Origin: Methylobacterium mesophilicum SR1.6/6
Lineage (GTDB): Bacteria > Pseudomonadota > Alphaproteobacteria > Rhizobiales > Beijerinckiaceae
Length of the DNA stretch: 64,000 nt
Assembly (NCBI RefSeq): GCF_000364445.2
Contig: NZ_CP043538.1
Span: 4,111,447 to 4,175,446 of the forward strand
Direction of reading: 5' to 3'
The translations under genes were made by a program, and so were the position numbers. This document shows positions 47,224 to 59,068 of this stretch, one piece after another. Numbering within the stretch: position 1 is the first letter of the stretch; each line of letters starts with the position of its first letter. The notes beneath the pieces were generated by a model. That model worked only from the letters and a program-made list of their open reading frames with translations. It did no database searches and was not told the DNA's origin.

Positions 47224-47458
47224 CGATCTCCATGACCGCTTCTAGACCTGCAGGATGCGGCCAGCATTGCGGCGGAAGCTGGACCGGATCTTTTCGCGGT
47301 CGTTGCAAGTGATGGCATTGGGGAAGGCGTGAAATCGGACGCGATGCGAGCGCCCGCGGCCTTCCCGGCGGCCGTCGCCGAAGGGCATATACCTTGCTTG
47401 GCTTGGGATGCCCCGACGGGGTGCCCTGCCGCGAGGATCCGCCCCGAACCGGGCTCCG

Positions 47459-48046
47459 ATGACCGAATCCAGCCTGACCGTCGCCGTTATCGATCCAAGC
47501 CGCGCGCGAGCGGCGATCCTGGAAGAGGGGTTGCGCGCGGCCAGCGTCGGCCGCGTCGTGATCATCCCCGACACGGCCGACCTCACGGAACGCCTGACCG
47601 CGCTCAAGCCCGACGTGGTGGTCATCCATCTGGAGAGCCCGAGCCGGGACATCTTGGAGCAGATGTCGGGAGTCTCCCGCCAGGTCGAGCGGCCGGTGGC
47701 AATGTTCGTGGACCGCTCGGACTCCACCATGATGCAGGCCGCCGTGGATGCCGGGATCTCGGCTTACGTCGTCGACGGGCTGCGTGCGGAGCGGATCAAG
47801 TCGATCCTCGACATCGCGATCCTGCGCTTCAATGCCTTCGCACGCCTTCAGCGTGAACTCTCGGAGGCGCGGGGCGAACTCGCCGACCGGAAGCTCATCG
47901 AGCGGGCCAAAGGCATCTTGATGAGCGTAAAGGGTCTCTCGGAAGACGAGGCCTACAAGCAGCTGCGCCGGAAGGCCATGAACGAGAAGCGCAAGATCGC
48001 CGACATCGCCCGGGCCATCGTGACGACCGCGGACCTGCTCGGATGA
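47459..48046 (+). CDS. nasT: NasT-type ANTAR antiterminator for nitrate assimilation
   Basis: A 195-residue protein. The receiver-like domain is at about 8-125. The ANTAR RNA-binding domain is at about 130-190 (ERAKGILMSVKGLSEDEAYK, QLRRKAMNEKRKIADIA). In known systems NasS holds NasT until nitrate or nitrite binds NasS. Free NasT then prevents leader termination upstream of the nas genes. Here the usual phospho-acceptor position in PDVVVIHLESPSRD is His57 instead of Asp, so phosphorylation is unlikely. ATG 47459 is preceded by a GC-rich leader. Its stop overlaps nasS by 4 nt. Confidence 0.9.
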   Translation: MTESSLTVAVIDPSRARAAILEEGLRAASVGRVVIIPDTADLTERLTALKPDVVVIHLESPSRDILEQMSGVSRQVERPVAMFVDRSDSTMMQAAVDAGISAYVVDGLRAERIKSILDIAILRFNAFARLQRELSEARGELADRKLIERAKGILMSVKGLSEDEAYKQLRRKAMNEKRKIADIARAIVTTADLLG

Positions 48047-49044
48047 GGCTTCAACTCGGCTACGTCCCGCTCTGCGACGCGGCGCCCCTAGTTGCCGCAC
48101 ACGAACTCGGCTTCGCGCGATCCGAAGGGCTCGACCTCGACCTGACACCCGAGCCGTCCTGGGCGACGCTGCGCGACCGGCTGGCACTCGGTCACCTCGA
48201 CGCTGCGCACATGCTGGCGCCGCTGGCGCTTGCAAGCCGCCTCGCCCTGTCGGGACCACCCTCCGACCTGATCGTGCCCGTGCAGCTCAGCGTCAACGGC
48301 AATGCCATCACCCTGTCGTGTGGCCTCTGGGCGGACATGCAGCCGGTGGGGACAGGGCTGGAGGCGGTCGCCCGTGCCTTCGCCAAGGTCGCCGAGGCTC
48401 GGCACCGGGCTGGCCAACCTTTGACCCTCGGCACGGTCCATCCCTTCTCGTGCCACACCTACCAGCTTCGGCTCTTCGCCGAAGCCGGCGGCCTCGATCC
48501 GACGATCCTGCGAACGGTCGTGGTCCCGCCGCAATACAGCGTCGAGACCCTCGCGCGGGGTCTTGTGGACGGCTTCTGCGCGGGCGCTCCGTGGAACGCC
48601 GTGGCGGTTGCCGCTGGCCATGGGCATGTCGCGGTGCTCGGGCACGCGCTGGCGCCTGACGCGCCGGAGAAGGTACTGGCCGTATCGGAGCGACTTGGCG
48701 GCGCCCTCCAGCCGCTGGTCCGGGCGGTAGCGCGGGCCGGGCGCTGGTGCGCCGACCCGGACAACCGGCCGGAGTTGATCCACCGCCTCGCCCGCCGGAA
48801 CTATCTCGGTCTTGACGCGACGCTCCTCGCCGCCGCCATGCCGGGCGCCACGGCCGCAGAGGCAACGGACGGGGCGCATCTCCGCTTCGGCACCACCGTT
48901 CAGGAGCCCAGCCTCGACCAAGCCCGCTGGCTCGTTCAGCAAATGTGGCTGTCGCGGCAGATATCGGGGCGGGGCGATCTCGAGGCCGCGGTGGCGACAG
49001 TCTACAGGCCCGACATCTACCGGGCGGTTGCCGCGGATCTGTGA
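48043..49044 (+). CDS. nasS: NasS-type nitrate/nitrite sensor (ABC substrate-binding-like)
   Basis: A 333-residue protein related to NrtA/CmpA periplasmic nitrate-binding proteins but with no signal peptide, so it is cytoplasmic. Blocks: LQLGYVPLCDAAPLVAAHEL, LALGHLDAAHMLAPLALA, TLGTVHPFSCHTYQLRLF and GFCAGAPWNAVAVAAGHGHV. Start ATG 48043 overlaps the nasT stop (ATGA), so the two are made together, as expected for a regulator and its inhibitor. Gene order here is nasT then nasS. Confidence 0.9.
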   Translation: MRLQLGYVPLCDAAPLVAAHELGFARSEGLDLDLTPEPSWATLRDRLALGHLDAAHMLAPLALASRLALSGPPSDLIVPVQLSVNGNAITLSCGLWADMQPVGTGLEAVARAFAKVAEARHRAGQPLTLGTVHPFSCHTYQLRLFAEAGGLDPTILRTVVVPPQYSVETLARGLVDGFCAGAPWNAVAVAAGHGHVAVLGHALAPDAPEKVLAVSERLGGALQPLVRAVARAGRWCADPDNRPELIHRLARRNYLGLDATLLAAAMPGATAAEATDGAHLRFGTTVQEPSLDQARWLVQQMWLSRQISGRGDLEAAVATVYRPDIYRAVAADL

Positions 49045-49817: not shown

Positions 49818-51086
49818 ATGGCGACATCTTCAATGCACACCTGCGCAGACGACGCGGGCGCTGAGACCGGACTGCCGCGCGAGAGACTGGTGGTCGTCGG
49901 CAACGGTATGGCCTCCCTGCGCTTCCTCGAGCGGCTGACGGAGGGTTCACCGGGCCACTTCGACGTCACCTGCATCGGCGCCGAGCCAACGGCCGCCTAC
50001 AATCGTGTGCTGCTCTCCTCGCTGCTGGGCGGCGAAGTCGATGAGGCAGCCTGCGCCTTCCGCGGCCTCGATTGGTACGCGGATCACGGCATTCGCCTGA
50101 TCACCGGCGCTCCGGTGACGCGGATCGACCGCGAGAACGGCCTCGTGATCGTCGGCGAGACCCACGTCCTCCCCTTCGACAAGCTGGTGCTCGCGGTCGG
50201 GTCTCTGCCGATCCGCCTGCCGAAGCCAGGCATGGATCTCCCGGGCGTCATCACATTCCGTGATCTCGCCGACGTGGCGGCGATCCGGCGGGCTGCGGTC
50301 CAGCACGCCCGGGCCATCGTCATCGGTGGCGGCCTTCTGGGACTCGAGGCTGCGGTCGGCCTCGCGCGCCTGGGTGTCGACACGACGTTGCTCCACGTCA
50401 TGGACCGGCTGATGGAGCGCCAGCTCGATCACCATGCCGCCGGGCTGGTGAAGCGCGCCATGGAGGCGCGCGGCGTGCGGGTCATCCTCAAGGCCGACAC
50501 CGACCGGATCGAGGGGGATGGCCGCGTCGAGCGCCTCGTCCTAGCCGACGGTACCGTTCTTCCGGCCGATCTGGTGGTGATGTCGGTGGGCGTGCGCCCC
50601 TCGGTGGCGCTGGCGCAGGTAGCCGGGCTGACGATCGGCCGCGGCATCACGGTCGACGACCGGATGACGACCTCGGATCCGCGCATCTTCGCGCTGGGCG
50701 AGTGTGCCGAGCACCGCGGCCAGATCTACGGCCTGGTCGAGCCCGCCTACGAGCATGCCGAGACGCTGGCCCGCCACCTTGCCGGTCATCCGGCCGAGTA
50801 CCGGGGGACGGCTCTGTCCACGAGCCTGAAGGTGTCGGGCCTGCCGGTCTTCTCGGCCGGGATCGTGGATACGCCCGACGATGCCGAGGCGATCGTGCTC
50901 TCCGATCCCGGTGCCGGCCTCTATCGCAAACTGCTGGTGCGCGAGGGCCGGCTGATCGGCGCAGTATTCGTCGGCGACATCGCCGAGCAGGGCGCCTGCA
51001 AGGGGCTGATCCGCTCCGGCGATCCGATCGAGAGCGTGGACGACTTGATGTTCGGGCGCCCGGCGCCCGAGCCGCTGGCTGCTTGA
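49818..51086 (+). CDS. FAD-dependent oxidoreductase, NirB N-terminal-like
   Basis: A 422-residue pyridine-nucleotide disulfide oxidoreductase-type flavoprotein. FAD motif: RLVVVGNGMASLRFLERL. NAD motif: AIVIGGGLLGLEAAVGLARL. Second FAD motif: RIFALGECAEHRGQIYGLVE. It resembles the N-terminal half of NADH nitrite reductase NirB/NasB but ends before any BFD [2Fe-2S] or siroheme domain. It is followed after 10 nt by a NirA-type reductase, so it may pass electrons from NAD(P)H to nitrite reduction (inferred). The leader carries the sigma54 promoter and attenuator. Confidence 0.85.
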   Translation: MATSSMHTCADDAGAETGLPRERLVVVGNGMASLRFLERLTEGSPGHFDVTCIGAEPTAAYNRVLLSSLLGGEVDEAACAFRGLDWYADHGIRLITGAPVTRIDRENGLVIVGETHVLPFDKLVLAVGSLPIRLPKPGMDLPGVITFRDLADVAAIRRAAVQHARAIVIGGGLLGLEAAVGLARLGVDTTLLHVMDRLMERQLDHHAAGLVKRAMEARGVRVILKADTDRIEGDGRVERLVLADGTVLPADLVVMSVGVRPSVALAQVAGLTIGRGITVDDRMTTSDPRIFALGECAEHRGQIYGLVEPAYEHAETLARHLAGHPAEYRGTALSTSLKVSGLPVFSAGIVDTPDDAEAIVLSDPGAGLYRKLLVREGRLIGAVFVGDIAEQGACKGLIRSGDPIESVDDLMFGRPAPEPLAA

Positions 51087-51096
51087 GGAGGCGCGG

Positions 51097-52914
51097 ATGT
51101 CCGAGACCACCACACAGATTGCCGCGGGCGCGTTCGAGGCCGAGCAGAAGCGCTACCTCGAAGGCTTCGCTTCCGGCATCGCCGCCGTCCGGTTGACCGG
51201 CGGCCTCGCCACGGGCGGGGCCGGAGCGGCCGCACCACCCACCGAGCCCACCGGCCCGGACGCGATCCACATCAAGGCGCAGGATCGGACCGTCAAGGAC
51301 GGCGGCAAGCTCTGCGAGCAGGAGAAGTGGAAGCGCGCCGAGAACCCGTTCGACGGCCACAATCGCCTGATCCAGGAGGCCGCCGCCGGCAAGCAGCCGA
51401 AGCCGGAGGACAATTTTCGCTGGCGCTACCACGGGATGTTCTGGGTCGCGCCCAACCAAGTCTCGTACATGTGCCGGATGCGGATCCCCAACGGGATCCT
51501 GCACCATTGGCAGTTCGCGGGTGTCGCCGACCTCGCCGACCAGCATGGCGGCGGCTACGTTCACGTGACCACCCGGGCGAACCTGCAGGTGCGCGAGATC
51601 GGCCCCGAGCACGCCCAGCCGTTCCTCGACGGGCTCACCGATATCGGGCTGACCGCCCAGGGCGCGGGCGCCGACAACATCCGCAACGTCACCGGCTCGT
51701 CCACCGCCGGTATCGACACGCAGGAGCTCTTGGACACGCGCCCCCTTGCCAAGTCCTGGCACAACTGGATCCTGAACGACCGCTCGCTCTACGGTCTGCC
51801 GCGCAAGTTCAACGTCGCCTTCGACGGCAGCGGCGTGATGCCGACCCTGGAGGAGACCAACGACATCGGCTTCCAGGCCGTGGAGGTGCTCGACGGCGCT
51901 TCCATGCCGCCCGGCATCTACATGCGCCTCGTGCTCGGCGGCATCTCGGGCCACCGGGACCTCGCCCGCGACACCGGCATCGTGCTGAAGCCGGAGGACT
52001 GCAACGCCGTCGCCGACGCGATCATCCGGGTGTTCATCGAGAACGGCGACCGGACGAACCGCAACAAGAGCCGGATGAAGTACGTCCTCGACGCCTGGGG
52101 CTTCGACAAGTACCTCGCGGCCGTCGAGGACAAGCTCGGCCGCAAGCTCGACCGGGTCGCGCCGGAGCAGGTCGCGCCGCGGAAGGCCACCGACCGGTTC
52201 GCCCATGTCGGCGTCCACGCCCAGAAACAGCCCGGCCTCAACTGGATCGGCGTGGTCCTGCCGGTCGGCAAGATGACCAGCGATCAGGTTCGGGCGCTCG
52301 CCAAGATCGCCGCCGAGTGCGGCGACGGCCAGATCCGCCTGACCGTCTGGCAGAACTTCATCTTCTCCGGGGTTCCGGACGCGAAGGTCGCCGAGGTTGA
52401 GCAGCGGGTGCTCGATCTCGGCCTCACTACCAAGGCGGCCGGCATCCGCTCCGGCCTCGTGGCCTGCACCGGCGCCCGCGGCTGCAAGTTCGCCGCCTCC
52501 GACACCAAGGGCCACGCCCTGATCATCGCCGACCACATCGAGAAGGCCCTGCCGAACCTCGACGTGCCGGTGAACGTCCACCTCACCGGCTGCCACCACA
52601 GCTGCGCCCAGCACTACATCGGCGATATCGGGCTGATCGGCGCCAAGGTCGTCGTCTCGGAGGAGGGCGACACCGTCGAGGGCTACGACGTGGTGGTCGG
52701 CGGCGGCTTCGCCGAGAACCCGAAGATCGGCAGCGAGATCTGGAAGGCCGTGAAGGCCGAGGACGTTCCCTCCCGCGTCGAGGCGCTGCTGCGCGCCTAT
52801 CTCGCCCTCCGGCAGGGCCCCGAGGAGAGCTTCCAGGCCTTCACCAGCCGCACCGGCGCGGAGGCGCTCCGCGACGCCGCCGAGGACCAGCCCGCCCTGA
52901 AGGCCGCCGCATGA
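51097..52914 (+). CDS. nirA: Nitrite reductase, NirA type (siroheme and [4Fe-4S])
   Basis: Reduces nitrite to ammonium with six electrons, usually from ferredoxin. The 605-residue protein has two ferrodoxin-like half domains followed by sulfite/nitrite-reductase cores. Cluster and siroheme ligands: C457 and C463 (CTGARGCKF), C499 and C503 (CHHSC, in HLTGCHHSCAQHYIGDIGLI). Other blocks: HVTTRANLQVREI and NVTGSSTAGIDTQELLDTRP. It overlaps the next gene by 4 nt. Siroheme would come from cysG downstream. The symbol is by family. Confidence 0.92.
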   Translation: MSETTTQIAAGAFEAEQKRYLEGFASGIAAVRLTGGLATGGAGAAAPPTEPTGPDAIHIKAQDRTVKDGGKLCEQEKWKRAENPFDGHNRLIQEAAAGKQPKPEDNFRWRYHGMFWVAPNQVSYMCRMRIPNGILHHWQFAGVADLADQHGGGYVHVTTRANLQVREIGPEHAQPFLDGLTDIGLTAQGAGADNIRNVTGSSTAGIDTQELLDTRPLAKSWHNWILNDRSLYGLPRKFNVAFDGSGVMPTLEETNDIGFQAVEVLDGASMPPGIYMRLVLGGISGHRDLARDTGIVLKPEDCNAVADAIIRVFIENGDRTNRNKSRMKYVLDAWGFDKYLAAVEDKLGRKLDRVAPEQVAPRKATDRFAHVGVHAQKQPGLNWIGVVLPVGKMTSDQVRALAKIAAECGDGQIRLTVWQNFIFSGVPDAKVAEVEQRVLDLGLTTKAAGIRSGLVACTGARGCKFAASDTKGHALIIADHIEKALPNLDVPVNVHLTGCHHSCAQHYIGDIGLIGAKVVVSEEGDTVEGYDVVVGGGFAENPKIGSEIWKAVKAEDVPSRVEALLRAYLALRQGPEESFQAFTSRTGAEALRDAAEDQPALKAAA

Positions 52915-54515
52915 CCCACTACGTCTCGCCCCCCCTCGTCCTGATCCCCGAGACCGCGCCCTTCAACGAGGACCAGCGCGCCTGGCTCTCGGGCTACTTC
53001 GCGGCCCTGCTCGGCCCCGCCGTCGCGGGCGCGACGGCGCTCGCGCCCGGCGAGGGCCCCGCCACGGGCCCCAAACTCGCCGACAACGACGACGCCCCCT
53101 GGCACGACCCGTCCGTGCCGATCGCCGACCGGATGGCGATGGCGAAGGACCGGCCCGAACCGCAGAAGCTGATGGCCGCCATGGCCCAGCAGGATTGCGG
53201 CCAGTGCGGCTACAACTGCGCCGACTACGCCAACGCCATCTTCCTCAAGAACGAGGCGCGCCTGAACCTTTGCCAGCCCGGCGGCAAAGAGACCCTGCGC
53301 ATGCTCAAGAAGCTGGACGAGGAGTTCGCCGCCGCCGGCGGCGCCCCCGCGGCGCCGAAGGCGGAGGACGACGCCCCGAAGGCGGCGGCCGATCTCGGCC
53401 CGCTCGGCTACTGCCGCGAGAACCCGGTCGAGGCGCTGTTCCTGTCCCGTCGACGCCTCAACGATCCGGGCGGCGAGAAGGAGACGTGGCACATCGAGAT
53501 CGGGCTCGACGGCACGCCGATCCAGTACGAGGTCGGCGACTCGCTGGGCCTGTTCCCCGCCAACGCCCCGGCGCTGGTGGATGCGGTGATCGCGGAACTC
53601 GGCGCCCGGCCCGAGCGGGTGATCGGGGAAAGGACCCTGCGCGAGCACCTGCTGATCAACTACGCGCTCGGCGCGGCGCCCGACAATCTGTACCAGCTGC
53701 TGTCGCTGCTCACCTCCGGGGCGGCGCGCAAGAAGGCGCAGGCGCTCGCCTCCGGCGAGGATCCGGACGGCGACGCCGCCTATCTCGACGTGCTCGGCGC
53801 GCTGCACAAGTTCCCGGGCGCGCGGCCCGACGCCGAGGTCTTCCTGGAGGCCTTGGACGAGCTGCAGCCGCGGCTCTACTCGATCTCGTCCTCGCCCAAG
53901 ATGGATGTCGGCCGCGTGTCGCTGACCGTGGACGCGGTGCGCTACAACCACCGCTCGCGGCTGCGGCTGGGCGTGGCCTCGACGCACCTGGGCGAGCGCC
54001 TGCCCGAGCAGACCAGGGTGAAGGTCTACATCCAGAAGGCGCACGGGTTCGGACTGCCGGCCGACCTGTCGAAGGACGTTATCATGTGCGGCCCCGGCAC
54101 CGGCATCGCGCCGTTCCGGGCCTTCCTGCGCGAGCGCGCCGCCACGCGGGCGCCGGGCCGCAACTGGCTGTTCTACGGCCACCAGCGGCAGGCCTCGGAC
54201 TTCTTCTACAAGGACGAGCTGAACAGCCTGAAGGACGACAAGGTGCTCACCCGCCTGTCCCTGGCCTGGTCGCGGGACGGGACGGAGAAGACCTACGTCC
54301 AGGACCGGATGCGCGAGAACGGCGCCGAGCTGTGGAAGTGGCTGGAGGGCGGCGCGCATTTCTACGTCTGCGGCGACGCCAAGCGCATGGCCAAGGACGT
54401 CGAGCGGGCGATCATCGACGTGGCGGCGCAGTTCGGCGGCAAGAGCCCCGAGGACGCGGTGGCCTATCTCGCGGCGCTTAAGAAGGCCGGGCGGTATCAG
54501 GCCGACGTGTACTGA
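52911..54515 (+). CDS. CysJ-like NADPH/FAD reductase with an N-terminal Fe-S motif in place of flavodoxin
   Basis: A 534-residue protein with an unusual domain order. Residues about 90-135 carry QQDCGQCGYNCADYANAIF then LNLCQPGGKET, with C96, C99, C103 and C121. This resembles the RnfB-type four-cysteine Fe-S motif. An Ala/Pro linker (about 140-160) follows. Residues about 165-534 are the FAD/NADPH module of sulfite reductase alpha: RLYSISSSPK, GVASTHLGERL, MCGPGTGIAPFRAFL and FYVCGDAKRMAKDVE. The FMN flavodoxin domain of CysJ is absent. Its ATG overlaps the nirA stop, so it is a probable electron donor to NirA (inferred). Confidence 0.88.
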   Translation: MTHYVSPPLVLIPETAPFNEDQRAWLSGYFAALLGPAVAGATALAPGEGPATGPKLADNDDAPWHDPSVPIADRMAMAKDRPEPQKLMAAMAQQDCGQCGYNCADYANAIFLKNEARLNLCQPGGKETLRMLKKLDEEFAAAGGAPAAPKAEDDAPKAAADLGPLGYCRENPVEALFLSRRRLNDPGGEKETWHIEIGLDGTPIQYEVGDSLGLFPANAPALVDAVIAELGARPERVIGERTLREHLLINYALGAAPDNLYQLLSLLTSGAARKKAQALASGEDPDGDAAYLDVLGALHKFPGARPDAEVFLEALDELQPRLYSISSSPKMDVGRVSLTVDAVRYNHRSRLRLGVASTHLGERLPEQTRVKVYIQKAHGFGLPADLSKDVIMCGPGTGIAPFRAFLRERAATRAPGRNWLFYGHQRQASDFFYKDELNSLKDDKVLTRLSLAWSRDGTEKTYVQDRMRENGAELWKWLEGGAHFYVCGDAKRMAKDVERAIIDVAAQFGGKSPEDAVAYLAALKKAGRYQADVY

Positions 54516-54528
54516 ACCGCAACTTGCT

Positions 54529-54637
54529 CTCCTCCCCCTGTGGGGAGGAGCCGGAGGTGGGGGTGGCGCAGGATGGGGCTCGGGCGGTGCCTTCTGCACC
54601 ACCCCCACCCCTAACCCCTCCCCACAGGGGGGAGGGG
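54529..54637. repeat. Dispersed palindromic repeat, family B, copy 2
   Basis: A 109-nt palindrome between the CysJ-like gene and nasA, inverted relative to the copy at 39049-39157. The left arm has CTCCTCCCCCTGTGGGGAGG, then CCGGAGGTGGGGGTGG. The right arm has CCACCCCCACCCCTAACCCC, then TCCCCACAGGGGGGAGGGGA. Confidence 0.88.
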
Positions 54638-54690
54638 AACGGCGGCGCGAAGCTTGCTCCCGCCCAGGACGACCCTGCGAGGATTCAGCC

Positions 54691-57387
54691 ATGACCCAGC
54701 CAGTGGCGGCGCCGACGGTGCGGACCACCTGCCCCTATTGCGGGGTCGGGTGCGGCGTGCTCGCGACCCCGGACGGGCAGGGCGGCGCCACCATCGCGGG
54801 CGATTCCGAGCACCCGGCCAATTTCGGCCGCCTGTGCTCGAAGGGCTCGGCGCTGGGCGAGACCCTGTCGCTCGAGAACCGCCTGCTCCACCCGCAGGTC
54901 GACGGCGCCCAGGTCTCGTGGGATGCCGCGCTCGACACGGTCGCGGGCAAGCTCCGCGCGGTGGCGGACGAGCACGGGCCGGACGCGATCGCCTTCTACC
55001 TCTCGGGCCAGCTCCTCACCGAGGATTACTACGTCGCCAACAAGCTCGCGAAGGGCTTCATCGGCACGCCGCACGTGGACACCAACTCGCGGCTCTGCAT
55101 GTCGAGCGCGGTCGCGGCCCACCGCCGGGCCTTCGGCTCCGACACGGTCCCGGGCTGCTACGAGGATCTCGACGAGGCCGACCTGATCGTGCTGGTCGGC
55201 TCCAACACCGCGTGGTGCCACCCGGTCCTGTTCCGCCGCATGGCCGACGCCAAGGAGCGCCGCGGCACCAAGTTCGTGGTCATCGACCCGCGCCGGACCC
55301 AGACCGCGCAGGAATGCGACCTGTTCCTCGGCATCCGGCCGGGCACCGACACCGCCCTGTTCTCGGGCCTGCTGGTCTACCTGTCGGACAACGGTTTCCG
55401 CGACCGCGCCTTCATCGATTCCCACACGGCCGGCCTCGACGGCGCCCTCGACCGCGCCCGCCAGATCGCGCCGGACCTCGCGGCTGTCGCCGCCGTCACC
55501 GGTGTGACCGAGGCCGACATCGCGGCCTTCTACGCCCTGTTCGCCGGCACCCGCCGGGTGGTCACGGCCTTCTCGCAGGGGGTGAACCAGTCGGCGCAGG
55601 GGACCGACAAGGGCAACAGCATCATCAACTGCCACCTCGTCACCGGCCGGATCGGCGAGACCGGGATGGGGCCGTTCTCGCTGACCGGCCAGCCGAACGC
55701 CATGGGCGGGCGCGAGGTCGGGGGGCTCGCCAACATGCTGGCCGCCCACATGCACTTCACCCCCGAGGAGGTAGACCGGGTGCGCCGCTACTGGGGCGCC
55801 CCGCGGATCATCACCGGCGAGGGCATGAAGGCGGTGGCGCTGTTCGAGGCGATCGCCCGGGGCAAGATCAAGGCGCTGTGGGTGATGGGCACCAACCCGC
55901 TGGTCTCGATGCCGCGGGCCGACGCGATCCGGGACTCGCTCGCCGGCCTCGACCTCTACGTGGTGTCCGAGGCGGTGGCGGATTCCGACACTGCGCGGGG
56001 GCGGGCCAGGACCACCGTGCTTCTCCCCGCCCAGGCCTGGGGCGAGAAGGACGGCACGGTCACCAATTCCGAGCGCCGGATCTCGCGCCAGCGCCGCTTC
56101 CTCGCGAGCCCCGGCGAGGCCAGGCCGGACTGGGCGGCGCTGGCGGATGTCGGGCGCCGCCTCGGCCACGGCCGGGCCTTCGCGTTCGATTCCGCCGCCG
56201 CGATCTTCCGCGAGCATGCCGGGCTCTCGGCCTACGAGAACAACGGCACCCGCGATTTCGACCTCGGCGCGCTCGCGGACATCGGCGACACCGCCTACGA
56301 GGCGGCCCTGCCGGTGCAGTGGCCGATCCCGAAGCGCTCCGGCTTCCGGGGCGCCCCGCAGGGGAAGGCGAGGCTGTTCGGCGACGGCCGGTTCTACACC
56401 TTCGACCGGCGCGCCCGCTTCGTCGCGGTGCAGCCGCCGGCCCTCGCGCTCGCGGCCTCGGCGGCGTTCCCGCTCATGCTCAACACCGGCCGGGTCCGCG
56501 ACCACTGGCACACGATGACCCGCACCGGGAAGAGCCAGCGGCTCTCCGCGCACCGGGCCGTGCCGTTCGTCGAGGTCCATCCGGACGACGCGGCGGCCCA
56601 CGGCCTCGCGGAGGGCGACATCGCCCGGCTCACGACCGCGCACGGCGCGGCCGAGCTGGAGGTGACGGTGACCGACACGGTGGTGCCGGGCAGCCTGTTC
56701 ATGCCGATGCACTGGGGCGGCGCCTTCGCGTCGCGGGCCCGGGTCGGCGCGCTGGTGCGGGGCATGACCGACCCGGTCTCGGGTCAGCCCGAGCTCAAGG
56801 CGACCCCCGCGGCGGTCGAGTCCGTCGGCTACCGCGCCCGCGGCTTCCTGCTGACGCGCCGACAGGTGGCGCTGCCCGAGGACTGGTGGTGGGCACGCGC
56901 CGCGATCACCGGCGGCTGGGGCGCGCAGTTCGCCACCGCCGACAGCTCCCGCGCCGTGGCGCTGATGGTGCGCGGGCTGATCCAGAGCGAGGCGCTGCCG
57001 GGCGGCGAGCTGGCGGAATATGCCGACCACGCCCGCGACCGCTACCGCTGCGCGGTCTACGACGGCGACCGCCTCGTCGCCTGCCTCGCCTACGCCCCCG
57101 CCGCCGAGCGGCCGGACTGGGAGGCCGCCAAGGTCCTGTTCGCCGCCGAGTCGCCCGACGCCGCCGAGCGGCGGGCGCTGCTCTCGGGCCGCGCGGCGAC
57201 CGCCTCGGCGGGTCCGGTGGTCTGCGCCTGTCACGGCGTCGGTGCGGACGTCATCGCCGCGACCGTCGCCGGAGGCGCCGGCTCCGTGGAGGCGGTGGGC
57301 GCCGCCTGCAAGGCCGGTACGAATTGCGGCTCGTGCATACCGGAGATCCGCAAGATGCTGGCCGGGCAGACCGCCCGCGCCGCATGA
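54691..57387 (+). CDS. nasA: Assimilatory nitrate reductase, catalytic subunit
   Basis: A cytoplasmic molybdopterin enzyme reducing nitrate to nitrite. The 898-residue protein has an N-terminal [4Fe-4S] site (C14, C17, C21, C49; CPYCGVGC). The bis-MGD core follows, with DTNSRLCMSSAVAAHRRAFG, WVMGTNPLVSMPRAD and LNTGRVRDHWHTMTRTGKS. A C-terminal BFD-like [2Fe-2S] domain has C845, C847, C879 and C882 (CACHGVG and TNCGSC). No twin-arginine signal is seen. It shares an operon with the nitrite-reducing genes, though a palindromic repeat separates them. Confidence 0.95.
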   Translation: MTQPVAAPTVRTTCPYCGVGCGVLATPDGQGGATIAGDSEHPANFGRLCSKGSALGETLSLENRLLHPQVDGAQVSWDAALDTVAGKLRAVADEHGPDAIAFYLSGQLLTEDYYVANKLAKGFIGTPHVDTNSRLCMSSAVAAHRRAFGSDTVPGCYEDLDEADLIVLVGSNTAWCHPVLFRRMADAKERRGTKFVVIDPRRTQTAQECDLFLGIRPGTDTALFSGLLVYLSDNGFRDRAFIDSHTAGLDGALDRARQIAPDLAAVAAVTGVTEADIAAFYALFAGTRRVVTAFSQGVNQSAQGTDKGNSIINCHLVTGRIGETGMGPFSLTGQPNAMGGREVGGLANMLAAHMHFTPEEVDRVRRYWGAPRIITGEGMKAVALFEAIARGKIKALWVMGTNPLVSMPRADAIRDSLAGLDLYVVSEAVADSDTARGRARTTVLLPAQAWGEKDGTVTNSERRISRQRRFLASPGEARPDWAALADVGRRLGHGRAFAFDSAAAIFREHAGLSAYENNGTRDFDLGALADIGDTAYEAALPVQWPIPKRSGFRGAPQGKARLFGDGRFYTFDRRARFVAVQPPALALAASAAFPLMLNTGRVRDHWHTMTRTGKSQRLSAHRAVPFVEVHPDDAAAHGLAEGDIARLTTAHGAAELEVTVTDTVVPGSLFMPMHWGGAFASRARVGALVRGMTDPVSGQPELKATPAAVESVGYRARGFLLTRRQVALPEDWWWARAAITGGWGAQFATADSSRAVALMVRGLIQSEALPGGELAEYADHARDRYRCAVYDGDRLVACLAYAPAAERPDWEAAKVLFAAESPDAAERRALLSGRAATASAGPVVCACHGVGADVIAATVAGGAGSVEAVGAACKAGTNCGSCIPEIRKMLAGQTARAA

Positions 57388-57595: not shown

Positions 57596-59068
57596 GTGAC
57601 TGAGACCCCCCTGCGCGCAGCCCGCGCGCCCCGCGAGACCAAGGCCGCCGGCCTGGAGCCGCTGGCGGTGCTGCCCGTCTTCGTCCCCCTGCGCGGCAAG
57701 CGGGTGGTGCTCGCCGGCTCGTCCGGCGGCGCCCCCTGGAAGGTGAAGGTCCTCGCGGCGGCCGGCGCCCACGTCGACGTCTACGCGCCCGAGCCCAGCG
57801 AGGAGCTGCGCGCGGTGCCGGGCGAGATCGTCGACGGGCAGGTGGTGCTGCACGAACGCGCCTGGAGCCCGGACGACCTCTGGGGCGCGACCTTCTGCGT
57901 CGGGGCCTTGGAGGACGAGGCCGAGTGCGTCGCCTTCGTGGCGGCTGCCCGCGGGGCCGGCGCCATCGTCAACGCGGTCGACCGGCCGCATCTCTGCGAC
58001 GTGAAGTTCGGCGCCATCGTCAACCGCTCGCCACTCGTGGTCGGCATCTCGACGGAGGGCGCCGCTCCGGTCTTCGGCCAGACGGTGCGCGCCCGGATCG
58101 AGGCGATGCTGCCCCGCGGCTTCGCCCGTTGGATGGCCGCGGCCCGCGACTGGCGGGACGGCGTCACCGCGCGCTTCCACGGGTTCGCCGAGCGCCGGGC
58201 CTTCTGGGAGCGCTTCACCGACCGGGCCTTCGCGGAGCCCGACCGGGCGCCGTCGGACCGGGACCTCGCCGAGCTGCTCGGCGAGACCGAGAGCGCCCCG
58301 AAGGGCGGTGCCGTGACGTTGGTCGGCGCCGGTCCCGGCGACGCGGAGCTCCTCACCCTCAAGGCGCTGCGGGCGCTGCGCAACGCCGACGTCATCCTCT
58401 ACGACGACCTCGTCGCCTCCGAGATCCTCGACTACGCCCGCCGCGAGGCGCGCACCATGCTGGTGGGCAAGACCGGCCACGGCCCGTCCTGCCGCCAGGA
58501 CGACATCAACGCGCTGATGGTCCAGCTCGCCCGCTCCGGCAAGCAGGTGGTGCGGCTGAAATCCGGCGACCCGCTGGTCTTCGGCCGGGCCGGCGAGGAG
58601 ATCGAGGCCTGCCGGGCCGCCGGCATCCCGGTCACGGTGGTCCCCGGGATCTCGGCCGCGCAGGGTGCGGCGGCGTCCCTCGGCCTGTCCCTCACCCATC
58701 GCGATGCCGCCCGCCGCCTGCAATTCGTCACCGGCCACGACCGTCGCGGCGCCCTGCCGGACGATCTGAACTGGGGGGCGCTCGCCGATCCAAGCGTCAC
58801 CACGGTGGTCTACATGCCCAAGCGGACCCTGCGGGCGCTGCTGGCGCGCGCCGTGGAGGAAGGTCTGGCGCCCACGACCCCGGCGCTGCTGGTGTTCAAC
58901 GCCACCCGCCCGAGCCAGCGGGCGCTGCGCGGCACGGCCACCGACCTCGCCGACCGAGTCGAGGCCGCCGGCCTCGACGGCCCGGCTCTGCTGATGGTCG
59001 GCGAGGCTTTCGCCGAGATGCGGGGCGCGCTCCTAGTCCAGGCCGAGCAGAACCGCGTCGCGGTCTGA
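57596..59068 (+). CDS. cysG: Siroheme synthase CysG
   Basis: A 490-residue multifunctional enzyme from GTG 57596. Residues about 25-230 form the NAD-dependent precorrin-2 dehydrogenase/ferrochelatase part. Its nucleotide motif is VVLAGSSGGAPWKVKVLAAA, in place of the usual VVGGGxVAxRK. Residues about 240-490 are the uroporphyrinogen III methyltransferase (VTLVGAGPGDAELLTLKALR, YDDLVASEIL, RLKSGDPLVFGRAGEE and VVPGISAAQGAAASLG). It would supply siroheme to NirA encoded upstream. Confidence 0.93.
   Translation: MTETPLRAARAPRETKAAGLEPLAVLPVFVPLRGKRVVLAGSSGGAPWKVKVLAAAGAHVDVYAPEPSEELRAVPGEIVDGQVVLHERAWSPDDLWGATFCVGALEDEAECVAFVAAARGAGAIVNAVDRPHLCDVKFGAIVNRSPLVVGISTEGAAPVFGQTVRARIEAMLPRGFARWMAAARDWRDGVTARFHGFAERRAFWERFTDRAFAEPDRAPSDRDLAELLGETESAPKGGAVTLVGAGPGDAELLTLKALRALRNADVILYDDLVASEILDYARREARTMLVGKTGHGPSCRQDDINALMVQLARSGKQVVRLKSGDPLVFGRAGEEIEACRAAGIPVTVVPGISAAQGAAASLGLSLTHRDAARRLQFVTGHDRRGALPDDLNWGALADPSVTTVVYMPKRTLRALLARAVEEGLAPTTPALLVFNATRPSQRALRGTATDLADRVEAAGLDGPALLMVGEAFAEMRGALLVQAEQNRVAV

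Follow-up and report, generated by a model that had tools for sequence, protein, structure and literature searches.

The closest described counterpart of the gene discussed here is CysJ, the flavoprotein of sulfite reductase (SiR-FP; TIGR01931, PRK10953; structures 1ddg, 6efv and 9c91). CysJ combines a flavodoxin domain for flavin mononucleotide (FMN), a flexible linker and a module for flavin adenine dinucleotide (FAD) and NADPH, it is paired with a siroheme reductase gene, and its N-terminus drives oligomerisation. Four-cysteine iron-sulfur (Fe-S) segments of the form CGQCGY..C...CxPGG occur in RnfB (PF04060; structures 8ahx_B and 7zc6_B), a subunit of a membrane complex. Siroheme nitrite reduction is driven by NAD(P)H in NirB/NirBD, with the FAD and siroheme parts of NirB on a single chain, and the NirA enzymes of plants (Nii), cyanobacteria, Mycobacterium tuberculosis (1zj8) and Pseudomonas aeruginosa are of the ferredoxin-dependent type. 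The present analysis concerns a gene of Methylobacterium mesophilicum SR1.6/6 within a 64,000-nucleotide stretch of contig NZ_CP043538.1 (positions 4,111,447 to 4,175,446 of the forward strand; hereafter the window). This gene (52911..54515, plus strand) is an open reading frame (ORF) of 534 amino acids that follows a nirA gene.

Comparative sequence evidence suggests that the gene very probably encodes a subunit that oxidises NADPH specifically for the neighbouring NirA, built like CysJ, with an RnfB-type [4Fe-4S] domain in place of the flavodoxin. NADPH would reduce FAD in the C-terminal module, and electrons would leave FAD one at a time for the tethered [4Fe-4S] domain, which would take FMN's place as one-electron carrier. 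This domain would swing on a linker of ~25 residues between FAD and NirA and deliver the electrons to the [4Fe-4S]-siroheme centre, where NirA would reduce nitrite to ammonium in a six-electron reaction. Similar N-terminal helices on the two proteins may hold the pair together. It is also fairly likely, though less so, that the pair forms a widespread alphaproteobacterial holoenzyme passing electrons from NADPH through FAD and [4Fe-4S] to [4Fe-4S]-siroheme with neither FMN nor ferredoxin, and that it arose when an RnfB-type domain displaced the flavodoxin of a NirA-serving CysJ-like reductase. The docking helix, linker and siroheme partner would have been retained through this replacement.

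Architecture of the reductase and its predicted Fe-S domain

The original prediction described a CysJ-like FAD/NADPH module with four cysteines and without a flavodoxin, and both the ORF and a Pfam scan agree. FAD_binding_1 (87.2 bits) and NAD_binding_1 (63.1 bits) were found in the protein, and the scan gave no match to the flavodoxin family PF00258. This family was likewise without a match in the four Fe-S-type relatives scanned (loci L069, L105, L107 and L109) and was found in all six CysJ-type proteins scanned (L120, L181, L111, L112, L113 and L115, of which L113 and L181 are one and the same gene). The CysJ models TIGR01931 and NF008197 align to the reductase only from residues 131 and 155 onward. 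The protein begins with a disordered segment and a helix; a stretch of low confidence then leads to a small domain made of helices, which a linker joins to the C-terminal FAD/NADPH module. By its sequence it is not a CysJ, since the FMN domain is missing, nor is it formally a member of PF04060 by score and spacing.

The FAD/NADPH module is about 40% identical to 1ddg. The FAD and NADPH binding residues of CysJ, including SRxxxxKxYxQ, are kept in 43 of 43 alignment rows, and R321, Y323, S324, S454, R455, K460, Y462, Q464 and Y534 are invariant in all of them. The SRxxxxKxYxQ segment presumably binds the NADPH phosphate. The full-length structure model was matched to E. coli SiR-FP60 (1ddg_A) with a TM-score by target length of 0.88 and a root-mean-square deviation of 3.6 over 379 columns. 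The linker ahead of the module is comparable to the hinge of E. coli SiR-FP, which has 30 residues (PMC9687028).

Near the N-terminus, the model places a helix at about residues 20-34, inside APFNEDQRAWLSGYFAALL. CysJ proteins encoded here and in other genomes have a comparable helix ahead of their flavodoxin. The original prediction that an Fe-S site replaces FMN is supported by this layout, in which the shared helix is followed by the Fe-S domain where the flavodoxin sits and then by the linker and the FAD/NADPH module. The N-termini of NirA and the reductase are alike, with F-x2-(D/E)-Q-(R/K)-x-(Y/W)-L-x-G-(F/Y) at 51133-51180 and 52956-53015. The helix pattern, composed after both helices had been seen, has 302 matches in the 2.95 million ORF residues of the retrieved loci, with gene copies counted repeatedly: 190 in Fe-S reductases, 106 in NirA, 4 in other CysJ-like proteins and 2 classed as 'other' that are NirA by eye. 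Alignment of the NirA and reductase helices by hhalign gave an E-value of 3e-11, which is biased because the compared segments were cut with the helix pattern itself. The helix is probably a docking or oligomerisation element of the pair.

The cysteine motif of the reductase reads CGQCGYNC...CQPGG. The arrangement C-x2-C-x3-C...C-x-PGG is present in 151 of 151 retrieved copies, which represent 116 distinct proteins, mostly from Methylobacterium, chosen by a pattern permitting x3 or x4 and demanding all four cysteines. The four cysteines are invariant across the 43-row alignment, in which identity goes down to 47%. In RnfB the second and third cysteines are instead separated by four residues (CGQCGYPGC...CxPGG, in eight of eight RnfB-like loci read; the seven frames scanned from these loci all exceed the RnfB cut-offs of TIGR01944 and NF003475). 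The length from the first cysteine to PGG is 30 residues in the reductase family and in all eight RnfB-like loci, because the residue lost between C2 and C3 is offset by an extra one between C3 and C4. The spacing that the original prediction found one residue shorter than in RnfB is thus real, and appears as a compensated variant that is the rule of the whole family.

Kinship with RnfB was also recovered with a profile built from 20 N-terminal regions. When searched in 398 Pseudomonadota genomes, this profile matched 218 at E <= 0.001, with near full-length matches and E below 1e-50 in 22. The other 196 genomes gave weaker, short matches (best E 1.5e-14, from a frame interrupted by three stops, and 1.7e-13 from a stop-free one); among those listed, they cover mostly profile positions ~72-140 in frames mostly of 180-300 aa. 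Only two PDB sequences were found at E <= 0.1, both of them RnfB (8ahx_B, 0.0045; 7zc6_B, 0.033). All four cysteines are paired in these alignments, which have one residue fewer between C2 and C3 and one more between C3 and C4, and the flanks match over about 60 residues. The rnfB model TIGR01944 aligns at residues 79-135 of the reductase with 35.9 bits (cut-off 68.7). The recovery of RnfB, including two solved Rnf structures, speaks for the Fe-S site of the original prediction, and the reading of the four-cysteine segment as a putative [4Fe-4S] site is supported. Unlike RnfB, the reductase would be a soluble NADPH enzyme.

Pairing with NirA and the flavodoxin counterpart

The stop codon of nirA overlaps the reductase start by 4 bp. 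NirA carries an N-terminal extension outside the NF007125 model, whose alignment begins at residue 65, and with 353 bits does not reach the cut-off of 594 of this 'ferredoxin--nitrite reductase' model. Its cysteines C457, C463, C499 and C503 are presumably the ligands of the [4Fe-4S]-siroheme centre. The catalytic core and cysteine segments are shared with ferredoxin-dependent NirA enzymes; unlike them, the window NirA has an EQ(K/R)xYLxGF motif in its extension and an adjoining reductase gene. The proposed NAD(P)H-driven reaction resembles that of NirB/NirBD. NirB, however, has a PF07992-type flavoprotein part (TIGR02374, 794 positions), whereas here NirA and the CysJ-type reductase are separate chains.

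The pairing was seen in every retrieved copy. All 109 motif-bearing loci (L001-L109) have a match to nirA upstream of the reductase and on its strand, and all 116 distinct reductases stand directly behind nirA, 87 of them with an overlap of exactly 4 bp. A frame with the siroheme-reductase cysteine pattern ends within 265 bp of the reductase start in 114 of the 116; L077 and L105, missed by this pattern, carry nirA by a separate match. One search for relatives took in the best 80 of 481 and may have passed over groups further away, and the retrieved set leans to Methylobacterium, for which reason the even genome sample weighs more. In that sample of 398 Pseudomonadota genomes, NirA exceeds the NF007126 cut-off in 22, and the Fe-S reductase is present in the identical 22, within 300 bp. 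In a class sample of 318 genomes, nine have NirA, eight of them with the Fe-S reductase and one (G165) with a flavodoxin CysJ. Each above-cut-off NirA in both samples has a CysJ-type neighbour, which is of the Fe-S type in 26 of 27 distinct genomes and of the FMN type in one. Two full-length copies of the reductase were found on plasmid records. The plasmid of Methylocystis sp. MJC1 has the same island, annotated as 'NirA family protein' and 'sulfite reductase subunit alpha' with a 4-bp overlap. As far as gene context can tell, this co-occurrence and adjacency favour the claim of the original prediction that the reductase feeds the overlapping NirA.

The FMN version of the system is seen in G165 (L181, contig C24, 2620-7769), where the gene for NirA (650 bits, above the cut-off of NF007126) overlaps that of a CysJ-like, flavodoxin-containing protein of 600 aa. 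Upstream of this pair, on the other strand, lies a formate/nitrite-type transporter gene (by eye).

A tree of the FAD/NADPH modules was requested for 41 loci and has 40 rows, L118 having been dropped and L181 omitted in favour of L113. Rows with CGQCG were labelled Fe-S, those over 850 residues long frames, and the remainder flavodoxin-type by default; among the tree rows, the flavodoxin is Pfam-confirmed for L111, L112, L113, L115 and L120 only. The 20 Fe-S rows stand together on one side of a branch with support 99/97, and the Fe-S character changes once in 100% of 200 bootstrap trees. The sister of the Fe-S clade is the NirA-linked flavodoxin CysJ of G165 (L113; 94/81), followed outward by two long frames (L143 and L146; 91/87) that resemble NasA-CysJ in both length and position. 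M. mesophilicum's own CysJ (L120) lies elsewhere, among other flavodoxin types, and L117 has a very long branch. Under a stricter pattern, which dropped 12 of 42 loci, the own-genome CysJ included, support for the Fe-S group was 90/68. The sister position of the G165 protein is as expected if the Fe-S domain replaced the flavodoxin in a NirA-serving lineage, and it strengthens the original prediction of such a replacement by giving the Fe-S clade a flavodoxin version of the NirA pair as nearest relative.

Alternative readings and published traces

The reductase may already have left traces in published data. In nodules of a B. diazoefficiens nifH mutant, bll4570, a 'probable sulfite reductase (NADPH) flavoprotein', is induced together with nirA (bll4571), at log2 values of 4.8 and 5.0 respectively, and in nifA-mutant nodules the values are 1.6 and 2.2; the two genes are not connected by the authors in the excerpts read (PMC4926349). 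In four genomes of one genus from the same order as Bradyrhizobium (L184, L193, L195 and L196), nasT-nasS-nirA is followed by the Fe-S reductase. Since the Bradyrhizobium cluster has the same order, nasTS-nirA (PMC4724949), bll4570 is likely the counterpart of the Fe-S reductase. Bradyrhizobium flp was found to be required on nitrate and dispensable on nitrite (PMC4724949), so NasC would have its own donor and NirA would be left with another. No description of the Fe-S reductase was found in the open PMC literature, subscription papers lying outside the scope.

Could the reductase donate to the nitrate reductase NasA of the next gene, with NirA using ferredoxin? NasA does lie downstream in the window, nitrate reductases fused to CysJ-like modules occur in other bacteria according to annotations and to a published description (PMC4013037), and the two fusion-like long frames neighbour the Fe-S/G165 group in the tree. 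Those fusions likewise place a CysJ-like module in nitrogen assimilation, but they are fused and contain a flavodoxin, whereas here a separate protein has an Fe-S domain (PMC4013037). Donation to NasA is improbable, given that the reductase pairs with NirA and not with NasA, that the window NasA carries its own BFD [2Fe-2S] domain, that a NirB-like gene stands beside nasA and away from the nirA pair in L069 and L072-L076, and that the flp result gives NasC a donor of its own (PMC4724949). Just as improbable is a scheme like that of ferredoxin-NADP reductase, in which FAD would reduce a free ferredoxin that serves NirA, leaving the Fe-S domain a structural or regulatory role, for example as a sensor of redox state or nitric oxide. 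In plants, M. tuberculosis and P. aeruginosa, NirA has been assigned to the ferredoxin type by name or by test, and the small Fe-S domain has a structure model that found no matches. The domain nevertheless occupies the electron-carrying FMN position of CysJ, between the shared helix and the linker, the NirA-paired sister protein of G165 has its flavodoxin at that position, and the reductase is the sole gene between nirA and nasA in the window.

The database name suggests a true sulfite reductase alpha subunit, and the match to NF004859 is strong (913.7 bits; curated cut-off 432). Because the control genomes of E. coli and B. subtilis also reach this cut-off, the name lacks specificity. As siroheme partner the gene has NirA and not CysI (121.3 bits, cut-off 756.55 not reached), and elsewhere in the genome another CysJ, of the flavodoxin type, is followed by a siroheme-reductase match, so that sulfite reduction would already be served. 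A role as sulfite reductase subunit is therefore very hard to credit. The NF004859/PRK06214 label mixes architectures, covering the Fe-S type alongside others. It is somewhat less implausible, though still unlikely, that the four cysteines bind a [2Fe-2S] or [3Fe-4S] cluster or zinc in place of [4Fe-4S]. The C-x2-C-x3-C spacing departs from the C-x2-C-x4-C rule of RnfB, but the profile alignment with the RnfB cluster segment matches all four cysteines and the length from C1 to PGG is equal through compensation.

The reading of the gene as an NADPH-oxidising subunit of NirA is well supported, and several points weigh against it. Its support is comparative. The original prediction named a PF04060 profile match as a check, and the window protein falls just under the gathering threshold of 23, with 21.8 bits (1.2 below); of four relatives, L107 passes (23.8) and L105 (19.7), L109 (17.5) and L069 (17.2) fail. 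Foldseek and VIA-align comparisons of the Fe-S domain model with the RnfB fold gave no meaningful match. G165 is a lone FMN example, and the support for its sister position lies below the 95 mark. The type of bll4570 is read from gene order. Ferredoxin has been assigned to Bradyrhizobium NirA, with a donor test absent from the excerpts read (PMC4724949), and a Pseudomonas NirA was active with reduced spinach ferredoxin, and to a minimal extent with NADPH plus flavin (PMC8092218). The Pseudomonas enzyme is a different protein, yet it shows that the enzyme type can use ferredoxin.

If the reading holds, NirA would act in Methylobacterium, Bosea, Methylocystis and probably Bradyrhizobium as the catalytic subunit of an NADPH enzyme that has a short-spaced cluster motif of its own, and not as a ferredoxin enzyme. 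This would settle the donor of NirA in many plant-associated and methylotrophic bacteria, for which ferredoxin has been assumed so far, and would correct the misleading 'sulfite reductase' label. The natural swap within one NirA family, with FMN in G165 and Fe-S elsewhere, would also probe the need for the FMN domain of diflavin reductases.

Gene neighbourhood

The features of the reductase, its proposed partner and the surrounding genes are collected in the table.

Table. Features of the nitrite reductase locus in window coordinates
Feature	Position	Strand	Basis or remark
Fe-S/FAD NADPH reductase, proposed NirA electron donor	52911..54515	+	NCBIfam NF004859/PRK06214, named 'sulfite reductase subunit alpha'
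N-terminal helix APFxxEQRxWLxGFFAxLL, residues 16-35	52956..53015	+	shared with flavodoxin-type CysJ, resembles NirA N-terminus
Fe-S domain, RnfB-like, residues 64-141	53100..53333	+	sequence, Pfam, profiles
C96	53196..53198	+	
C99	53205..53207	+	
C103	53217..53219	+	
C121	53271..53273	+	
Low-confidence linker, ~25 residues (142-166)	53334..53408	+	predicted model confidence (pLDDT) under 50 at 144-158
FAD/NADPH module, residues 167-534, 1ddg-like	53409..54512	+	alignment, structure model
NirA siroheme nitrite reductase, proposed partner	51097..52914	+	NF007126 1035.9 bits, cut-off 523
NirA N-terminal motif FEAEQKRYLEGFASGI, residues 13-28	51133..51180	+	in N-terminal extension
NirA C457, C463, C499, C503, predicted [4Fe-4S]-siroheme ligands	52465..52605	+	aligned to conserved cysteine segments, solved plant nitrite reductases
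NasT-like ANTAR antiterminator	47408..48046	+	family scan
NasS-like NMT1_2 nitrate/nitrite sensor	48043..49044	+	family scan
NirB-N-terminal-like FAD/NAD(P)H reductase	49818..51086	+	TIGR02374 positions 1-383 of 794 only
Assimilatory nitrate reductase-like molybdoprotein (NasA/NasC), C-terminal BFD-type [2Fe-2S] domain	54691..57387	+	
CysG-type siroheme synthase, required for NirA cofactor	57596..59068	+	family scan

NasA was sought in 19 genomes, comprising 14 in which no NasA was seen beside the pair together with G165 and four genomes taken because they belong to the same genus as G420 (G743, G784, G536 and G576). It is present but unlinked in 17 of them, always on another contig or at a distance of about 1 Mb or more, and neither G126 nor G165 gave a match to it at E <= 1e-100. 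The genome of G126 (L183) is one contig, rated 100% complete, and keeps the pair of NirA and Fe-S reductase. It encodes eight other molybdopterin oxidoreductases, and G126 may thus either reduce nitrate with a different molybdenum enzyme or be confined to assimilating nitrite.

The NirB-like reductase probably donates to NasA rather than NirA. Its gene adjoins nasA, apart from the nirA pair, in six loci (L069, L072, L073, L075 and L076, all five from Bosea, and L074). Its position immediately ahead of nirA in most Methylobacterium loci means that it cannot be assigned by gene order alone. A division of labour is proposed in which the NirB-like reductase would serve NasA and the Fe-S reductase NirA.

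A palindromic repeat, about 110-120 bp long, separates the reductase gene from nasA at 54520-54660. It has 78 matches at E <= 1e-5 in its own genome, many of them one place matched on both strands, which points to a dispersed REP/MITE-like element.

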